From: Amia ocellicauda
Lineage: Eukaryota; Chordata; Actinopteri; Amiiformes; Amiidae
Reading direction: 5' to 3'
Assembly (NCBI RefSeq): GCF_036373705.1
Contig: NC_089850.1
Coordinates: 34,830,233 to 34,894,232, forward strand
Length of the DNA: 64,000 bases
Shown: positions 17,301-64,000 of the stretch, one piece after another
Numbering within the stretch: the first letter of the stretch is position 1
How the letters are laid out: each line of letters opens with the position of its first letter
Made by a program: the position numbers and the translations under genes
The notes under the pieces: model-generated
Told to the model about the DNA's origin: nothing
Seen by the model: only the letters and a program-made list of their open reading frames with translations
Databases searched by the model: none

Positions 17301-20300
17301 GTAACATTATCCAGTATGTGAACAGTGCATGGTGTCTGGTGGGGAAGGGGTGCAGTCCTGGGAGTCACCTGTGAGGGGCAGTGTAGAGTGAACCCTGTTG
17401 TGAAGTTCTGAACATCAGTCTTATTGCCCAGAGGTTCCAGCTGTGAGACAGACACAAGGACACAGTCAGACAGGCAGAGAGACAGACACTGAACTGACAC
17501 AGACAGACACGTGGGACAGACATTCAGTCAGATACAAAACCAGTCAGACACACAGAGACACACACAGTCAAACACTCAGTCAGTCAATGAACAAGTGAGG
17601 CAGCGACTGCCTCATGGACAGACTGTCACAGACAGAGAAACAGACAGACGCACACAGGTGCAGACAGTGAGAGAGAGTCAGTCAGTCATTCAGTAAGAGA
17701 GACAGTCAGTCAGTGTTAATGTCAGTGTGTCAATGTGTCAGTCAGTATGTCAGTTTGTCAATGTTTTTGTCAGTGTTATCAGGCAGTGCAGTGTGTCAAT
17801 GCATCATTATCACCATGTTGTTCCACAGGGATCGGGCCATGTGGGATTGGGCCTTCTGACTGAGGTGGAAACAATCTGGAGTGAAGAACGTGCGATCAGG
17901 GCGCCCATCCTGGGTGTGGGTGGAGGGGGGACATATAGGTGGGGGGAGAGGAGAGAGATCTTATCATGTGCAAAAGACTGAGAGACAGACAGAGGTAGTC
18001 TAAACATTATACACGCTCAATGCCTAGAAATGAAGACCACTACATCTATTCTTTAAATGTTCTGAGGGTGTCTGCAGATGGTTTTGCTTCATTGTTAAAT
18101 GAGACTGTTACCTGATGATGTTATGGAGTTAATAATGTTTTCTCCAATGTGGAAATGCCAAACAAAATGGAAGGTGACATAAATGTATCAAGGTGCTTAT
18201 CTCAGAGTTAACCATTTAACATAAAATAAAAATGCTAGTAAATTTCACTTGACATTGCAGTGTCACAAATGTTGGCCAGGTGCAGAGTGGGCTGCCTGCA
18301 GTGCCTCTGACCTGCAGCAGGGGGAGCACCACCTCCCTGAAGAAAGGCTGCACCACCACAGTGAAGTCATCACGCGTGTCGTATCGCCCGGAGTCCACCA
18401 GCTCAAGAACTGCTCGCTGCCACGGCAAGACACGCACAGGGCACACAGGACAAATGGCACAGGTGACAATTTTCCAAAGATTTAAAATTGTGCTACATAA
18501 TATTTGACTGCTGATCAAGTGATGTAAAAAGGATAAAGCAGGATTGTGTATAATAGTGTGGGGGATTTTTTTTTAATAAACAGTTAAGGTGCTTTTTAAT
18601 GTTCTCTTTTAAAAGTATACGCAGCATAAACAAGTATTATAATAAAATATGTTTTGCTGATCTTGCCTGTTCATTATTTTGGAATCACAGTTTAAAAGGG
18701 ACTGACACTGAGGAACAGGCAGGGCGTCCTTGTCTACGTACCCAGTTGCCAGTATTACTGGTGTAATATTGCTGTATTGGTGGGATTCATGTTTAGCTGC
18801 TCTGGGTGTGGCTATTTTCCGGGGAAGTTCGTACCTGATAGGCTCTGTTCAGGTCATTCAATGTCTGGAGCTCCCTGGACCCCTCCTTAGGCTTCACCAC
18901 ACAGCGACACAATATACTGAGAAACAGAGGGGGGGGGGGGCAGTCAGCCACTGAGTGTCACTTTACAGTCAGACTGGGGGAGTGGAGACACTTGCAAGCT
19001 TATTCAAAAGACCATGATGTAATTGGAGTTGACTGATTAATGAGCAAGTTACAACACAAGGTGAAGGAGTTAATTGGTAAACGAGTCTGATGAAGTTGAG
19101 GAGTAAATTGCAGACTGAGGGAGTTAATAAAGGGGAGAGGGCATTGAGGAGATAATTGGTTAACAAGGGTGTTAAATGCTGAGGTGTAAATTGGTTAAGG
19201 AGACCGTTACTTGACAATCAGGGTGGGGCAGCCCAGGCTGCGGTCCTGGTGCAATCTGCGCAGGGGGGTAATGTGCATCGGCTCGACCAGGTTCACAAAC
19301 ACCCGCGGCACCTGGGGAGAGAGACAGGCAGGCACTGAGAGACAGACACTAAGTTGCAGACAGGTACTGCACTGAGAAACAGACAGACAGAAAGGAGCAG
19401 GTGACAGAGAGACAGAGGGAAAGAGAGACAGACAGAGAGACAGTGCTAGAGCTGTACCTCTTTGTGTAGGATGTCCAGAGCCTGCTGGATTCGGATCATG
19501 AAATTCCGGGGTGAGAAATAGATCTACATAGATAGAGAGGGAGGAGGGAACTATAAGAACAGAACACCAGTTGAAAGGTTACAGACTTTAAATGCTTAAT
19601 TAAACCCGTCTTTTGGCCTCCCCTGCCAGTTTCCCCCCCAGCACCAGGCCTCACACTGTCAGTGCAGTAGTCACACAGGTCATTGCCTCCGATGAACACT
19701 GTCACCAACTTCCAGTCCCTCTGGAAATCCACTCGCTGAGGAGACAAGGAGGGGGAGAGATGTAGTGAGGGAGCGAGGCGCAGAGAGAGACCTGTATTTA
19801 CATGCTCTGATAACAACGATGTCATTAGGTTATGCCAATAAAGCTTTTTTGAATTGACTTGAGAGTGGAGCGTATGTGTGAGATGGAGAGACAGTTGCTA
19901 CAGTGTATTGCAACAGCAGCTATTTCACCATTCTACTACTACTATCACTAGGCCGGTTCTACAGACCTGATACTGCTGCCCCCTATTGTAACTTCAGTAT
20001 TCCATGTTTCTCCCACTGTAATCCCCAGGTCTACCACTAGATGGCAGCGTTTCTCCCTGTCTGTCTCCTGCAGCTGACTTTGTGTGCTTGACAGCATGTC
20101 AGTCTGTGTGTATGCGTGTATGTGTGTGTGGCGATTGTTTGTGTGTGGCAAGTGTATGTTATTGTGTGGAAGAGTCTATACCAGGGTGTATGTGTTGGTG
20201 TGTGTTAGTGGGCTACAGTGTGTAGCTGTGTTTGAGTGAAAATATTGTATATTATTATATTATAAATATATGTTGACGTTTTAAAAGTATAATTTCTGTA

Positions 20301-38604: not shown

Positions 38605-38671
<67 letters not shown>
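38605..38671. repeat. (TA)n microsatellite in ypel5 intron 1
   Basis: A pure TA run of about 67 bp, able to extrude as a cruciform. No function inferred. Confidence 0.97.
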
Positions 38672-46430: not shown

Positions 46431-49400
46431 ATGTCGGCGCATTATCCTTCACTATACTGGTGAGTACCGTTTCTTTTCTCTTCTCCGCCCCCCTTTATCA
46501 GTCTAATCTTCCGTTTTTTTGTATCCCTTCCCCTCTTTTACGCTGCGCTACTCTGTTACTCTACCCCCCTCCTTTTACATCCCCGTCTCCCCACTCCATC
46601 TCTGTCCGCCTGTCTGTCCCTCTGTCCCTCTGCCCTCCTCTGTGTGTGTGTCTAGGGTGGGGGGTTACATATGAAATCCCACCTGTCACTCTTGCTGTGG
46701 GCACCTGCGGCAAAGCCCCCCCCCCACCCTGTTTCATAAGCGCTTTACTGCCTTGACAAGGTTATACAAGTTCCTGCCAGTCCGAGCACACCGGATCACT
46801 GACATGCAATAATGGGTATGTGTATGTATGTATATGTATATATATATATGCATATGCATATGCAATTTTCCACACTCCTCTGCATTTTGAGACGTGTTGC
46901 ATGTTGAGAGGATGAGAACGTGTAGTTGAGGACATTACCTGTGCATTTAGTGTTTTAAGGGCTTTTATGCTGGCAATTGCAGACCCTTTTTGAACTGGAG
47001 GCAGATCTGTCCTCTGTCCATCCTGTCTTTCTTGCTAGTGTTAGTGTCCTCAGTGCGCCCTGCGAGCTGCGGTGATCGGCGCGCTGCTGGTAACGCAGAT
47101 ATCATTCATTACAGCCCAGCGCTCCCACAGCTGTCCACTGTGCCATAACGGCGTTTTAATCTGGAGCCGGTTAATTTATTTTCCGTTTTATGGCCCACAT
47201 GATTAGAGCAACTGCTAACTTTCAATAATGCAGAGCGGTTAACAAGCCCTAATGTGCTGGAGGAGTAATTGGTTGTGTTGGGGGGGGGGGTACAGCCGTG
47301 TCATTTGCTCGAGCACTGCTGGGATGAGCAGTTTCAAAGTGCTGCTTTGGGGACGACGGCCCATCTCGTATTCACAACATGTCTGCAAAACCAGCACTTG
47401 TACCCGTGTGTGTCCATGCACATGCAGTCCATGCACGCTGTGTTGGCTGGCAGGACAGGTTAGATTCAGGACAGTGCGTCACAATGGGGTACCGCGTTAA
47501 ATGGAGAGCGGTCTGCGCAGTGACGTGGTAATCAACTGTGTTAAAGTCTACTATAATTGTAATGACTATTTGGTGTACTTTTATATTGTTGCAGCGTCTT
47601 GTATTAAAATACAATCTCAGTGATGTATTTTGTTCCCGTAAATAACTGCAGCAAAGTGGGGGGTGGGGGGGCCACTCAACCCGAGACTGCTGCGCCCGCT
47701 TTCACTCCGTTTTAAACCGGTTTCAGGAAGTGTTGAAAGAAAGGTCATATTCCACACAACACGGAAAAAACAGAAGTTATGTTTTTATGCACCACGCGTC
47801 TTCTGAAGTTTTTTCCTATTGTTTGCTAATAGACCAAGTGGTTTCACATTAACTGAGAGGCCGAGAGAGGCGAGTGGGCCGCCTGTCCCCGCACTGTTTG
47901 CATTGAACACGAGTGATGTTATATGGGTGAACATAAAAAGAGGGTTTAGGTTTGCGTTTGGGCTGTTGTAAAAGAGTTTAACACGGCTGTCCTCTGTCTG
48001 GGTACCACAGTGCTCGTGTGGCTCCCCGCTGCAGCACAGTGAGAGGCAGGGTAACGGGTCGTGTTCGTGTAGCGCAGATCTGCACAATCCCACCGACCCC
48101 ATTGGCGGAGCATACAGGCGCACAACTGCGGACATCTGCGCAGCGCCATCGCGACCGCTGTGTAGTGTGCGCTAGACTCGGTGTCTCGACCGTTTACTAC
48201 CGAGACTCGTCCGCCTGTTGTGGTGTGACTGCTACACAGAGGAGATTATGAACCTTGGTTTGTTTGTGTAGCATTTTTGTAGCATACCATTTTTTTAAAA
48301 TAATATTAATAGCACTATAATGGGCACTGCTGCACTGTAACATTGTAGGGAATGGGGCTTGCATGAGTTACATCGTTTATCACGATCTGCAGATTTCAAC
48401 AGACTGTAGGGAGAACAAGAGCTCCTGCAGTTACAGTAAAGAAGCTGGTGATGTGAGGGAAAGGTGGTCAGAGTGTCTGTTGAAGTGTTCGCTCTCAACC
48501 GTGTGGGTATCGGAGTGGGTGAAGAAAAAGCACCTTTACATTGCATCGCATTTCCTAGAATAGCTCAATATAGACATAGGAGCTGTGCATGGTCAGAGTC
48601 AGACCACTCAGCAGTGGTCTGACTCTGACCATGCACAGCTCCTATGTCTATATTGAGCTATTCTAGGAAATGCGATGCAATGTAAAGGTGCTTTTTCTTC
48701 ACCCACTCCGAGCGCAATACTGCACAAAGACTAAGGAGAGCCTAGCTGGGCCTAGTCAGAATGTCCCTCCTCTCTCGATCCGTGTTGACTCGGCTGCATG
48801 CTGCCTGAAAACTCTCAGCTGCTAATTAATGCTGTAATTATTCATCATTATCGCACCGGGGTTTCCAGCAGCCTGACCTTTTCATTGCTGTACTGCGCGC
48901 ACTCAGCCACTGCCAGGAAAGGGCAGAGATCTGACACTTATTACTCCTGTGTATGTCTGTGTAAAGCTCTGAGTCCTTGTACCTATTGAATGTAGGTCAC
49001 AGCAGTAGCACATTTATTTGCCAAGCTTGCTGTGGACCCAGCACAGTCCAAGCATATCAGCATGGCAGACAGAGGACAGAGGTGCTGCAAAACTGTGCTT
49101 TGATTGCATTGTCACTAATGGACATCTCACACGATATACATTTCTGGCAATCCAATAGAGAACATTTCTACTGTGATTCACTGTCCAAGTAGCTTTGCCT
49201 TCATTCAAAGCACTACAGCTATATGTTAAGCAAGTGGACATGCCTTAACGAACACACTCGCCTGTACTGAAGGGTCTCCAGCAGCATTTACAACACACCG
49301 TTGACTTCTGTCTTCAAGTTGCTATATTCTAGATTTCCTTAACTAGGACTGAAGGATGAGATTATTGATGTTATTTTACTTTTACAATGCAACAAGTAAT

Positions 49401-52400: not shown

Positions 52401-55400
52401 TATGAAACTCAGTTGGAACTAGAACATTTCAGCTGGAGTTGGGAAGTGTTCAGGGGGAAGTGCTGAAGGGGAGGGATATGGGTGTGACACTGTGTTGGGT
52501 AAGCACATGCAAACATTTAGTTCTGCAACCTTTTTCTTGTAGGTTGTGCATTATAACTGTCCCCCTCTGCAAGAAGCAGGCTTGTTTGAGAGCTGCCTTC
52601 ATGAGCCCTGAGCTCTGAGAGGAGGGGCTACAGCTCTCTGCAGGGCCTGTGTGCTCAAGAGCTGGACACCGCGGTGCATGCCTGGGCAGTGGAGGTGGGG
52701 ACCTGCACACGATGGTGTTCATGACTGTAGTGGAGAGTGTCCTCTCTGGTGCTGTAGAAACACGAATGGTGTCAGCTCCGTATTTCTGCTTTGCACGCCT
52801 ACGATGCAGTTTCATAATGACTGAGCAGCTTCACTGTTTTCAGCACAGAGCTGCAGAGCTCTACAGTAGCTGCTGAAACCCAGTCAAAACAGTGGAAACT
52901 TTTATTTTCTTTGCAGATTACGTTTTTGATTTTATTGTAATATATATTTACAGTACTGAAAGTTCTAACCACTGCCTTTGATGTTCCACACAACAAGAGC
53001 TGGTGTCTGTCTGCCGCCTGCACTGCAGTTTGATTACCCTGGACTGTGGGTGCAGCTCTGCCCCTGTCTGTCTGTCCTTCTGCTCTTCACGAGTGATCTT
53101 ATTCGCTGCTCTTGTCCGAGTGTCCATGTGAGCGCATCTGACCCAGCTATTCTAACCCTCTGTCTCGCTCAGCTCCGTGTTCCTGCCCTCCTGTGAGATG
53201 ACTGAGGTGGTGATGATGAGCGGCGCCCCCATGGACGACATCCATCTCATTCCTGGCAAAGACCGACACTCCTATCAGGTACTGCTGAGGGGAAACTCAT
53301 TATAAGGTTGATTCCTGCTCAGCCTACTGTGCTCAGGGCTGCAGTGGTTTTTGTTTTAAATCCTCATAAGTTGAGTGAGAGAACAAGAAATGGAGAAGGA
53401 AGAAGGGATACTACTTGGGGGTCAGGGGTTTGGCTGCTTCTCTTTATGTGCCTCTCAGTTTTGTCAGCACCTACTATAAATCCCACCCCCGCTTCCCGTG
53501 AGCTCACGCATTCCCTACATTCCTCCAGCAACACTGGAGTGTCACCCTACACACACACACTGGGATCTGTACTGTCTCGGTCCCTGACAACATCCTTCCC
53601 CTGGCCCTGCCTGCCTGTCTCGGCACACCATCCAGTCCGGCCCCCTGCACTGACACACAGGCATAGCAGTGAGCGTCTGGCTGGCTGTGTCTGGGCTGTG
53701 AGTGTCAGTCTGTGTCGGATCAACCGAGCGCTGTGCACGTGCTATAAACTGTTCTGCAGTACAGGAGCTCAATGCCATGTCTGACTTCAATACCACACTG
53801 TAAGGCACAGCCTTACACCCACAGAACCGGCCACACTAGCATTATCTTTCCAGGCTTCCTACTAAACTATTCAAACTTTGACAGTATCAGGGTCAAGACT
53901 CTGTCAGTCGGTCAGTGTTGGCCTGTACTCCGCACGGTGGGGGGGCTGGGCTGGGTGTTCTCGGGTGGCCAACCTGTTGGAGGCGTAGCAGGTGTCGGGA
54001 AGTGTGCAGCGACCGTGTGGTCTGTCAGCCTAGCTCTGGTTCTTTTCTGTGCTAGTTGTATTTTGAAAATATTCACAGGGTTGGTTTTAGCCTGTTTGTT
54101 TTTGGTTCCCCTCCATTTTGAGTTCTCTGGTGGATTTTAGTCCTCTTTGTTGCTGCCAGCAGACTCCACATGCAGAACTTCTCCAGAATTTTAATTTACT
54201 TTCCTGAATACCAGATCTGTGGTCCTCTGCGGTCTTCTCCTCAGAGTGCTTCCATTCCCAGTGGACCAGAGTGTCAGTGCCTACTGTAATCCCCTGCTTT
54301 GCTAGTATATTGCTGATCCCCAGAACATTTCCCTCCCCTGCAGTCTGAAATGGAGTTTTATTTCATCCTACAGCTATGGTCTCCAGCATTGGACCTCACT
54401 TTATTGATCATTTTAGCAACAAGTACCCCATTCATTGAACTGTGCTCCTCAAGGGGGTGAAGGACATTTGGGTGATTGTTGCCAGTGATCTCTTAACTGA
54501 CTGAATTCAAAAAGAGCACCATCATTGATCAGTGGTGTACAAATAGAGGAGGTTGTTCAACCCGTTGTGCTGGTTTGGTAGCTGCAGTAACTTCCAGACT
54601 TGAAAATTGCATCCGGTCTGTTCTGGAATGATCTCAACTGCTCGTATCTTATCTCTTGAATTCTTGAGCCCGTGTCTTTTTTTCCCCTTGCGTCTGGAAG
54701 CTGCTCCCTCATGTGACTCTGCCCCCCCTGCCTAGTGATGTCTGGCGGCTTAATTGGTTTAATTGAGGCAGCTGAGGGCCTGGTGTGACCTGTTGGTAGG
54801 TGTGACCTGTTGGTAGCAGTGCCCACTGACTGTGGAGCGTGACAGTGGACCTCGAGGATCAGATTAGGAGAACATTGCTTCCACACCATGTTTTAATGGT
54901 CTTTGTTAAACCACCACCTGGACTGAAATTAAGTAGGATTAATTTTTAAGTAATTGCCCTGTCTGCCATTGGCTATACTTGGCTGCACTGTAGTAGAAAG
55001 CTCAAAGCCCCCCTGAGTCAGACTTAAACCCTTTGGCTGGAAAGCTGCAGCCTCCTGTCACGTCTTTCAGATCTGGAGCATCCCACCTGATCGGATTGGA
55101 CATGCAGGTTATGAAAAATTAGGAGCCTGCTAAAACTGGTGCTCATCCTTTTATTTTTTTTTAATCGAAATGGGCTGCCCTGTGTACAGATTTCTGTACT
55201 TGAGTGGGATTTGTGGTCTGAAAGCTGGAGTAGTATTCTCGGAGGCCCAAGACCCCTTTGTTTGTCCAGCTCCCTGGCTGCCATCCCTGGGGTGCCCAGT
55301 TACTCGAGCTCCCTGCTTCTTGGTCGGACCTCTGACCCAGGCCTGTGAGCTCACAGCAGTGTTTTTTGTTTTTTTTGTGTTTTTTGGTAATTGTTTCAAG

Positions 55401-57761
55401 ATGTGGAATCGGGGTAAATATTTTTAGGATCCTGTTCGGGGGTTATTTATAGCCGGGAAAAAATATCTAATGGAATCTTTTGTGGATTAAATTGTTTTTA
55501 TATGAATTTTTTCCTTTGCTTTATTTGTCGGAGAGTGGGGGGGGCTGTGTGAATCAGTGTGCCCTGTGAACTTGGTGGAGAGACTCAGAATGTTGGTCTG
55601 TCTTTTGAAGTCTGTGAGTAGGGAGCGTTACAGGAAGCCATGCACGTAGGCAGGAGTTGGGTAAATCACAGCGTCTTGTTTTAAAAAAAAATATATATAT
55701 ATATTTTTCTGCTAGAGAGTACAAGCCTAAATCTGCATGTAGGATTAGGAATCTCTTATTCCAAAGCCATCAATGAATCGGTCTCCCTTTTATGTGTGAA
55801 GAGACACCAAAGCAGCTCGAGTTTCTTGCTGTTGGGGGTGGAGGGGACACTGACTGGGTTCCTCTGCCTGTTATGTTATTGGCTCCAAAGTGAAGTGGAA
55901 GGAGACAACCGTGCGCATGTCGCCCAGGTTGGCAGACCCCTGCACTGCGTCCTGCCACAGCTCAAACGGCATCTGCAGCCAGCACTAGAGCAGAGGAGAT
56001 GGTGGGCAAGGAGTCAGGCTTTCATTAAGTGCCTTGCTCTTTTCCGAAACCCCTCTGCCCCCTTTTCTTTTTTTTATTTTATTTCAAGCTTATCTGCCTT
56101 GCAACAGCAACCACTTCCTATGCGTCTGTCCCCAGAGGAAGAGGTGCAAACTGTATTGAACTGAATTGCAACTCTGCAAATCTCAAACCCAGTTAGTTAG
56201 GCTGTCAGAGGGCTGCTTGACTTCGCTCTGGGCTGACACCAGTCCCGCACCTGCTACCAGCCTAGAGGTGGCATTTTCCCCAAGTTCTTAAACGGTCTCT
56301 CCATCTGCACTTTTGATGGAGGAGGGACCAAAAACAAGCATTTTCTCCAGGAGAGCGCACCTCAGCTGGCCTCCCCAGGATCGACTCGGCATCACTGATC
56401 AAACTACTGACCTCTGGCCTCCCAAAGTGTCAGTCAAGGAGGTAGTTGCCAGTTGCATCGCCTTAATAGTTGCCACTGAGCTCTTTATTATGAAGACATG
56501 AGAGGGATTACAAGCTAGAGGAGCCTTATTCAGACACTCCTGCTTGTTGGTCCCTCAGGAGCTAATCATCCCCAGAATTGCATCCGGCGTTTTTTTTTTT
56601 TTAACAATCCTAGTTGACTTACAAACTGCGACTGGGTAGGTTTGATCTACACATTAAAGTAATCTGCACACACAACCTTAATTCTGCTGCACAATTCATA
56701 TATATATATATTAAAAAAAAAAAAAAAATCTAGCTGTACTGGATTACAAAGACTTTTGTTTTTGAATTTGTTACATCCCCCCCCCCCCCCCCCCCCCCCA
56801 AAAGTATTTACAAAATGGAACAGACACAAGTGTAATTTACAACCCTGCCTTTCCCTCCCTCACCCCCCCTACAGCTGGCTGGTTTCGGCTCGCAGCGCCA
56901 TGGACAGCGGATGGGACGGCAGCCTAATGCTCTGTTTCCACTGGGCTCCGTGCCCAGACTCAAATCTGTCTCCATTGAAGACACGGGTTTAAAAATAGTT
57001 TGCTGAGTTCTGATAACGATAGAATATGTGCTGTACTTGGAAAAGCTTCTTAATAACAAGACAGCCGTGCGCACAGCTTTTTTTTTTTCTCTTCCACTCC
57101 CCTCCCCCCCTCTTCCTCGAGAGAGATGGGAGCTGGTGTGGTGTGGTTCAACATGTCTGTTTCCCCCATAAGCCCTCGCTCACACTTCACTTCAGTTCAA
57201 TTCAAGCACTCTTTACTGGCGTGAAGACAAGGTTTTCTCATTGAGTGTTTACATTGAAGGGAGCAGTGCAGCAGAACAGTGCAGAGAGGGGTGTACATTA
57301 ATTGCAATACAGAAATGCAGAACATTTACAGATGCTTAAAGAACAGTTTCAGTGCATATGGATCATTTCTAAACTTCCTTTCTCTGCAGATGTTCCTCGG
57401 CTGGAGAGAGTGTTTTATGCCCGTTCAAAGTGACAATGAGCCTGTCTGTGTGTGTCTCCATTTGTTGTGGAAATTAAAGGTGATTAAGTGTTTTTCCTCA
57501 GTGTCTCATGCTCACCCTGTCCTCCTTGGGTCTCTACAGATTTTCCCCGACCCCTCGGACTTTGAGCGCTGCTGTAAGCTGAAGGACCGGCTGCCCTCCA
57601 TCGTGGTGGAGCCGTCGGAGGGAGAGGTGGAGAGTGGGGAGCTGCGCTGGCCTCCAGAGGAGTTCCTGGTGAGCGAAGAAGAGGAAGAGGAGGATGATAA
57701 GATGAGCCAGGAGGGGATGAGCCCATGCAAGCCGGCTCAGACCCAGGACAACCAGCACTAG
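46431..57761 (+). CDS. lbh: Limb bud and heart development protein (complete, three coding exons)
   Basis: LBH is a small acidic nuclear transcriptional cofactor acting in limb, heart and Wnt-responsive tissue. Coding exons are 46431-46459, 53173-53278 and 57540-57761, all GT-AG. Together they give 118 residues (mammalian LBH is about 105). The third exon carries the diagnostic core FPDPSDFERCCKLKDRLPS, then VVEPSEGEVESGELRWPPEE, then an acidic run of Glu/Asp and a longer polar tail that accounts for the extra length. The short first exon joins in frame to give MSAHYPSLYCSVFLPSCEMTEV, parallel to the N-terminus of mammalian LBH. A second in-frame ATG at 53198-53200 (residue 19) could also be used. 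Introns are 6.7 and 4.3 kb. Confidence 0.93.
48072..48141 (+). repeat. GC-rich palindrome-ended repeat, copy B (lbh intron 1)
   Basis: It starts GCGCAGATCTGCACAATCC and ends GCGGACATCTGCGC, with CACCGACCCCATTGGCGGAG between. It matches copy A at 37902-37966 in the same order and orientation, with a few substitutions and a 5-bp length difference in the right half. Confidence 0.75.
48511..48710. repeat. Perfect 98-bp inverted repeat with a 4-bp spacer (lbh intron 1)
   Basis: The left arm 48511-48608 and right arm 48613-48710 are exact reverse complements over 98 bp by base-by-base reading, with CAGC between. The left arm begins CGGAGTGGGTGAAG and the right arm ends CTTCACCCACTCCG. Flanks on either side do not match. 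The arm sequence is complex, not a simple repeat, and has no transposon ends that I recognise. It may be a recent palindrome made by template switching, a source of hairpin RNA, or an assembly or read artefact. Confidence 0.97.
52250..52268. repeat. Poly(G) run in lbh intron 1
   Basis: A homopolymer of about 19 G. A shorter run (about 14 G) is near 51447-51460. A poly(C) run of about 23 is at 56777-56799 in intron 2. Lengths of such runs are unreliable in assemblies. Confidence 0.85.
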
Positions 57762-63171: not shown

Positions 63172-64000
63172 CAGTACTGTGCAAAACTTTTAGGCATGTG
63201 TGAAAAAATGCTGTAAAGTAAGAATGCTTTCAAAAATAGACATGTTAATAGATTATATTTATCAATTAACTTAATGCAAAGTGAGTGAACAGAATTAAAA
63301 TCCAAATCAAATCCATATTTAGTCGGCCAAGGAAACTTACTGCAGCAGATGAAAGACACATCATGCTTACTTCCCTTAGCAATCGGAAGATGTCCAGCAG
63401 TGCCATCAGCTCAGAATTGGCAGAAAACAGTGGGACCCTGGTACACCCATCTACTGTCCGGAGAAGTCTGGTCAGAAGTGGCCTTCATGGAAGATTTGCG
63501 GCCAAAAAGCCATACCTCCGACGTGGCAACAAGGTCAAACTACTCAACTATGCACGAAAACACAGGAACTGGGGTGCAGAAAAATGGCAGCAGGTGCTCT
63601 GGGCTGATTAGTCAAAATCTAATATTTGTCTGTAGCAGAAGGCAGTTTGTTCGCCGAAGGGCTGGAGAGCAGTACACGAATGAGTGTCTGCAGGCAACAG
63701 TGAAGCTTGGTGGAGGTTCCTTGCAAGTTTGGGGCTGCATTTCTGCAAATAGAGTTGGGGATTTGGTTGGTCCCAAATTTATTCTGAAGCATGACAACGA
63801 CCCCAAACATACAGCAACAGTCATTAAGAACTATCTTCAGCGTAAAGAAGAACAAGGAGTCCTGGAAGTGATGGTATGGCCCCCACAGAGCCCTGATCTC
63901 AACATCATCGAGTCTGTCTGTCTGGGCTTACATGAAGCAACTGATGCTGCCTAAATCCACAGAAGAACTGTGGTTAATTCTCCAAGATGTTTGGGCCAAC
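63172..64000 (+). pseudogene. Decayed Tc1-like transposon with transposase relic, cut by the window end
   Basis: A TA dinucleotide is followed by CAGTACTGTGCAAAACTTTT, a Tc1-type terminal repeat. The leader runs to about 63310 and then jumps into mid-transposase, so the N-terminal part appears deleted. The plus-strand relic shows the helix-turn-helix part (RPRKLTAADERHI, HPSTVRRSLVRSGLHGR), the first catalytic Asp in QQVLWAD followed at once by a stop at 63609-63611, then after a frame change VWGCIS, HDNDPKHTA and SPDLNIIES. The second Asp and the Glu of the DDE triad are therefore visible. A further frameshift follows the SPDLNIIES block. It is inactive. The right end lies beyond the window. 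Confidence 0.88.

Follow-up and report, generated by a model that had tools for sequence, protein, structure and literature searches.

The lbh locus and the palindrome

The window, that is, the whole 64-kb stretch of DNA that was analysed, contains the gene lbh and, 4.5 kb upstream of the first lbh coding exon found, a perfect palindrome made of two long arms and a short spacer. The features, numbered along the window, are as follows.

48510..48608, + strand: left arm, 99 bp; exact reverse complement of 48613-48711, the only partner found elsewhere in the assembly
48609..48612, no strand: spacer CAGC (hairpin loop), 4 bp, read from the sequence
48613..48711, - strand: right arm, 99 bp; exact reverse complement of the left arm
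53198..53278, + strand: lbh coding exon (MTEVVMM...HSYQ), the first coding exon found, followed by a GT donor; from sequence and translation
57540..57761, + strand: last lbh coding exon (IFPDPSDF... to stop); Pfam PF15317

Pfam PF15317 matched the window at 57531-57761 (E 2.5e-22), the last exon alone scored 80 bits, and the spliced product of 53198-53278 and 57540-57761 covered positions 1-98 of the 101 in the Pfam Lbh profile with 94 bits. Two further Lbh-family matches were found in the assembly, on contigs C5 (with one internal stop) and C27. Upstream of 53198, the search for an lbh exon gave no match to mammalian N-terminus motifs and no convincing alignment. An earlier note on this DNA had placed the palindrome in lbh intron 1; the identity of the gene is borne out by the profile score, whereas the intron is unproven. 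With no upstream lbh exon found, the palindrome may lie either in intron 1 or 5' of the gene; a non-coding first lbh exon located farther upstream than the palindrome would be plausible, though unproven. The observed/expected ratio of CpG, calculated in 500-bp steps, was 0.77-0.9 at 45.5-46.5 kb, 0.39 at 46.5-47 kb and 0.68-0.84 at 47-48.5 kb; for the step containing the palindrome it was 0.42.

Several other features of the window were recorded. An AT-rich, homeobox-site-like stretch at 48820-48880 (TAATTAATGCTGTAATTATTCATCATTA) resembles, by eye, a conserved non-coding element. An open frame at 63285-63608 (+) encodes a helix-turn-helix domain of the Tc3 transposase type (Pfam HTH_Tnp_Tc3_2, E 3.5e-14), and another at 19499-19897 (-) shows a weak, below-cut-off match to GDSL lipase (E 2.4e-4).

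The two arms are complementary at 100% of their 99 bp. The earlier note had described a perfect palindrome with 98-bp arms and a 4-bp spacer; the palindrome and its spacer were recovered as described, and the arms proved to be longer by one base at each outer end. The outer ends are abrupt. The first base pair outside the arms is mismatched and scattered pairing occurs farther out, so that the flanks are mutually unrelated, as had been claimed, and what lies between them is the adjacent reverse-complement copy by which a template-switch mutation (TSM) is recognized. The 99-bp arm ranked first among the 65 near-palindromes detected in the window (perfect arms of at least 12, spacer up to 60), and the next 19 among the matches listed, with arms from 33 down to 24, all represent registers of a single (TA)n run (38605-38670). 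As controls, the dinucleotides of the window were used to generate six first-order Markov sequences, each of 64 kb; a single arm of 12 occurred in two of them, and none of 12 or more in the other four. A chance origin is excluded, because sequences of the same size gave no perfect arm longer than 12.

Copy number and other palindromes in the assembly

The assembly searched comprises 988 Mb in 385 contigs, and the window lies on a contig of 64.4 Mb. The proposed check on copies of the arm across the genome was run, and only the palindrome's own two arms were matched, with no other copy at E ≤ 0.001 or at E ≤ 10. This search skips very common words, and a missing match does not amount to proof of rarity; at E ≤ 10, where one candidate came through the first pass, target sites that are very short may have escaped detection. 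The region around the palindrome (47800-49400, 1.6 kb) was matched in full length at one place only, namely itself. The other 44 matches listed for it were one self-pairing of the palindrome and, for the rest, dispersed repeats (query positions 256-367 and 1183-1600); 40 of the 659 candidates were scored, and the repeat counts are lower bounds. These repeats, which flank the palindrome region without reaching the palindrome or its near flanks, occupy 48055-48166 and 48982-49399 of the window and resemble many places on other contigs. Given the single full-length place and the single-copy arm, therefore, neither a second haplotype copy nor an element family was seen, and a haplotype duplicate was rejected, the near flanks showing no second copy among the candidates scored.

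As to a target-site duplication (TSD), no exact direct repeat of 3-12 bp abuts the arms, and the abutting dinucleotides differ (TA versus GC). One 27-nt pattern from the arm, searched exactly, gave 0 matches in viral_contigs and 0 in genome_contigs, a weak test because both collections are viral or prokaryotic.

Other palindromes in the same genome were sought in a background scan of 35 loci (205,985 bases), with perfect arms of at least 20 and a spacer of up to 60. The set was non-random, consisting of 14 stretches of 10 kb (one fixed coordinate on 14 contigs, 140 kb) and 21 loci taken from repeat or Lbh matches. One locus inside the window at the lbh exon (L037, 3,183 bases) was included, and nine loci were left out, namely four holding the 99-bp palindrome and five fetched for another palindrome. 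Ten sites were obtained, eight in simple repeats and two, in L007 and L030, in complex sequence. The palindrome at L007:9179-9275 (C5:5009179-5009275) has 43-bp arms and an 11-bp spacer and lies inside a high-copy repeat: all 40 places scored, of 260 candidates, matched it at 99-100% identity, itself included, and the perfect 43-bp arms were kept in 4 of the 4 copies fetched. The second, at L030:2690-2767 (C2:19094976-19095053), is a near-palindrome with 48-bp arms (36 perfect pairs, one mismatch and 11 more pairs) and a 6-bp spacer; it lies near a TATC microsatellite, and no other copy of it was found in the assembly at E ≤ 0.001. It has the look of an earlier product of such an event that has since acquired one substitution. 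The L030 locus came from a repeat match, and the fixed-coordinate stretches (140 kb) gave no single-copy case. These results suggest that the 99-bp palindrome is not the sole one of its kind in this genome, two cases permitting no rate.

Origin of the palindrome

In our assessment, the palindrome is probably an inverted duplication produced by one recent template-switch (fold-back) event in replication or repair. A template switch with return is favoured because the structure has a single copy within the reach of the search, ends abruptly between unrelated flanks, lacks a TSD, and has a spacer of 4 bases; the second single-copy near-palindrome met in 205,985 bases (L030) adds support. The same observations agree with the earlier proposal that one event would suffice, and with its framing of the palindrome as very young, maintained, or an artefact. 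A nascent strand ending near CCACT-CAGC-AGTGG would fold on itself, or jump to the sister or complementary strand, then copy about 94-99 bases backwards, and go back to its proper template close to the point of departure. One arm would thus be old sequence and the other new, and the arm sequences do not tell which. The centre CCACT-CAGC-AGTGG offers a 5-bp stem and a 4-nt loop able to nucleate a hairpin, and could have primed the fold-back if present before the event. A 10-base direct repeat (TGGTCAGAGT), present in the left flank at 48465 and in the arm at 48590, was considered as a switch point and not used, because by our estimate chance alone would give about 0.3 pairs of this kind per 800 bp.

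Comparable events have been reported in other organisms. In great apes, 4017 significant short-range template switches were described; the reported gold-standard set (n = 1503) has a median templated length of 12 and a maximum of 128, 65.0% of its events make the sequence longer, and a single inverted repeat is what the majority patterns leave behind (PMC7954356). The palindrome shares with these mutations the local reverse-complement copy beside its source, the perfect arms and the untouched flanks, and differs in that its arm is far above the median, though under the maximum, and that it was read from one genome. It was also reported that template switches can make perfect hairpin stems in one step, and that in the rRNA study concerned the largest pattern, of 59 bp, did not pass quality control (PMC8794818). 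A length of 99 bases is therefore long for the class, which weighs against a template switch. Since the ape templated maximum is 128, and since perfect arms whose spacer does not exceed 8 bp are reported to reach 140 bp at most in human (PMC13155455), the 99-bp arm is long, but within known bounds; arms of this length are less exceptional than the earlier note implied. Fold-back inverted duplications, as described in PMC3907307, likewise place an inverted copy beside its source with a non-duplicated spacer, and arise at short inverted homology at the turning point, which is possible at the palindrome too. Unlike the palindrome, they rearrange chromosomes on a large scale and have spacers of 766-70,466 bp; the copy in the palindrome measures 99 bp, and beyond it the original sequence continues. 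Microhomology-mediated break-induced replication, as a form of double-strand-break repair, was proposed to explain microinversions of 17-33 nt (PMC8755829); this would be an alternative route to the palindrome, inseparable from a template switch here.

An assembly or library artefact, that is, a read fold-back or a whole-genome-amplification palindrome carried into the consensus, is considered unlikely. The palindrome was seen in the assembly consensus rather than in reads, one survey put the share of fold-backs among nanopore genomic DNA reads at about 0.55-0.6% (PMC12870357), and amplification is reported to produce artificial palindromes (PMC6218980). A fold-back read, however, would normally run back along its own flank to the end of the read; here the turn-back lasts 99 bp and gives way to unrelated flank, which would need two switches and the support of a majority of reads. 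The near flanks, moreover, lie at one place in the assembly, and virtually no fold-backs were reported in PacBio HiFi genomic reads from the three PacBio samples of the survey (PMC12870357), a figure whose relevance hinges on the technology used for this assembly.

The earlier note had also raised the possibility of a Dicer substrate or hairpin-RNA source. Folded as RNA on the given strand, 48490-48731 forms one long hairpin of -202.7 kcal/mol, compared with -63.3 +/- 4.7 for shuffled sequences (z -29.6), and the DNA fold gives -131.8 (z -32.6); this stability is not separate evidence for a role, because it follows from the palindrome itself. De novo microRNAs have reportedly been traced to template switching in a 2023 PNAS paper. 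The patterns at some microRNA loci are compatible with an origin by template switch, and the hairpins so born, such as MIR633, resemble the palindrome in having a perfect stem within the reach of a single mutation, the difference being that the palindrome is known here from DNA sequence alone (PMC8794818). A functional hairpin-RNA gene (an endo-siRNA or young microRNA precursor) that selection or recurrent template switching keeps intact would have a 99-bp perfect stem in its RNA strand. Against it, no match to a known RNA family was obtained in Rfam for the window at the gathering score, no second genomic match to the arm that could serve as a target was found at E ≤ 10 within the limits of that search for very short sites, and transcription of the site is unproven. 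A Dicer substrate is thus physically possible, the Rfam and arm searches having given it no positive support, and we regard a functional gene of this type as very improbable. The specific version of this explanation, a newborn locus in a transcribed lbh leader region, in which one switch made a 99-bp double-stranded stem that is diced and kept perfect by selection or repeated fold-back repair, is given an equally small chance; if true, such a locus would have been caught before it gained the mismatches typical of established microRNA genes. Most likely, the palindrome does nothing.

The least probable explanation, insertion of a MITE or another miniature or fold-back transposable element, draws on the occurrence of palindromic parts of repeat families in this genome (as in L007, with 43-bp arms at 40 scored places), and was rejected on copy number (no other copy of the arm at E ≤ 10) and the missing TSD, with the L007 family as the positive control, the same search finding such copies when they are present.

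Age and significance of the palindrome

The perfect identity of the arms indicates that the proposed template switch either was evolutionarily recent or was followed by later rounds of the same process that repaired differences between the arms. If no homogenisation is assumed, 0 differences in 99 pairs set the 95% upper limit of the age at 15.1, 7.6, 5.0 and 3.0 Myr when the rate is taken to be 1, 2, 3 and 5e-9 per site per year, respectively; fold-back repair between the arms could hide a greater age. According to a review, the risk that palindromes pose to genome stability is higher when their arms are longer and more alike and the spacer is short (PMC7999016), and such a risk fits a young age.

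Taken together, the palindrome is a real and striking feature of the assembly, yet of an ordinary kind of mutation, and the present evidence gives it no role other than that of an example of this mutation. It is likely a recent template switch with a size near the upper end of the known range, and likely illustrates cleanly how a single copying error can place a long perfect hairpin next to a developmental gene. Population data would allow it to be used to follow the rate at which such structures decay.
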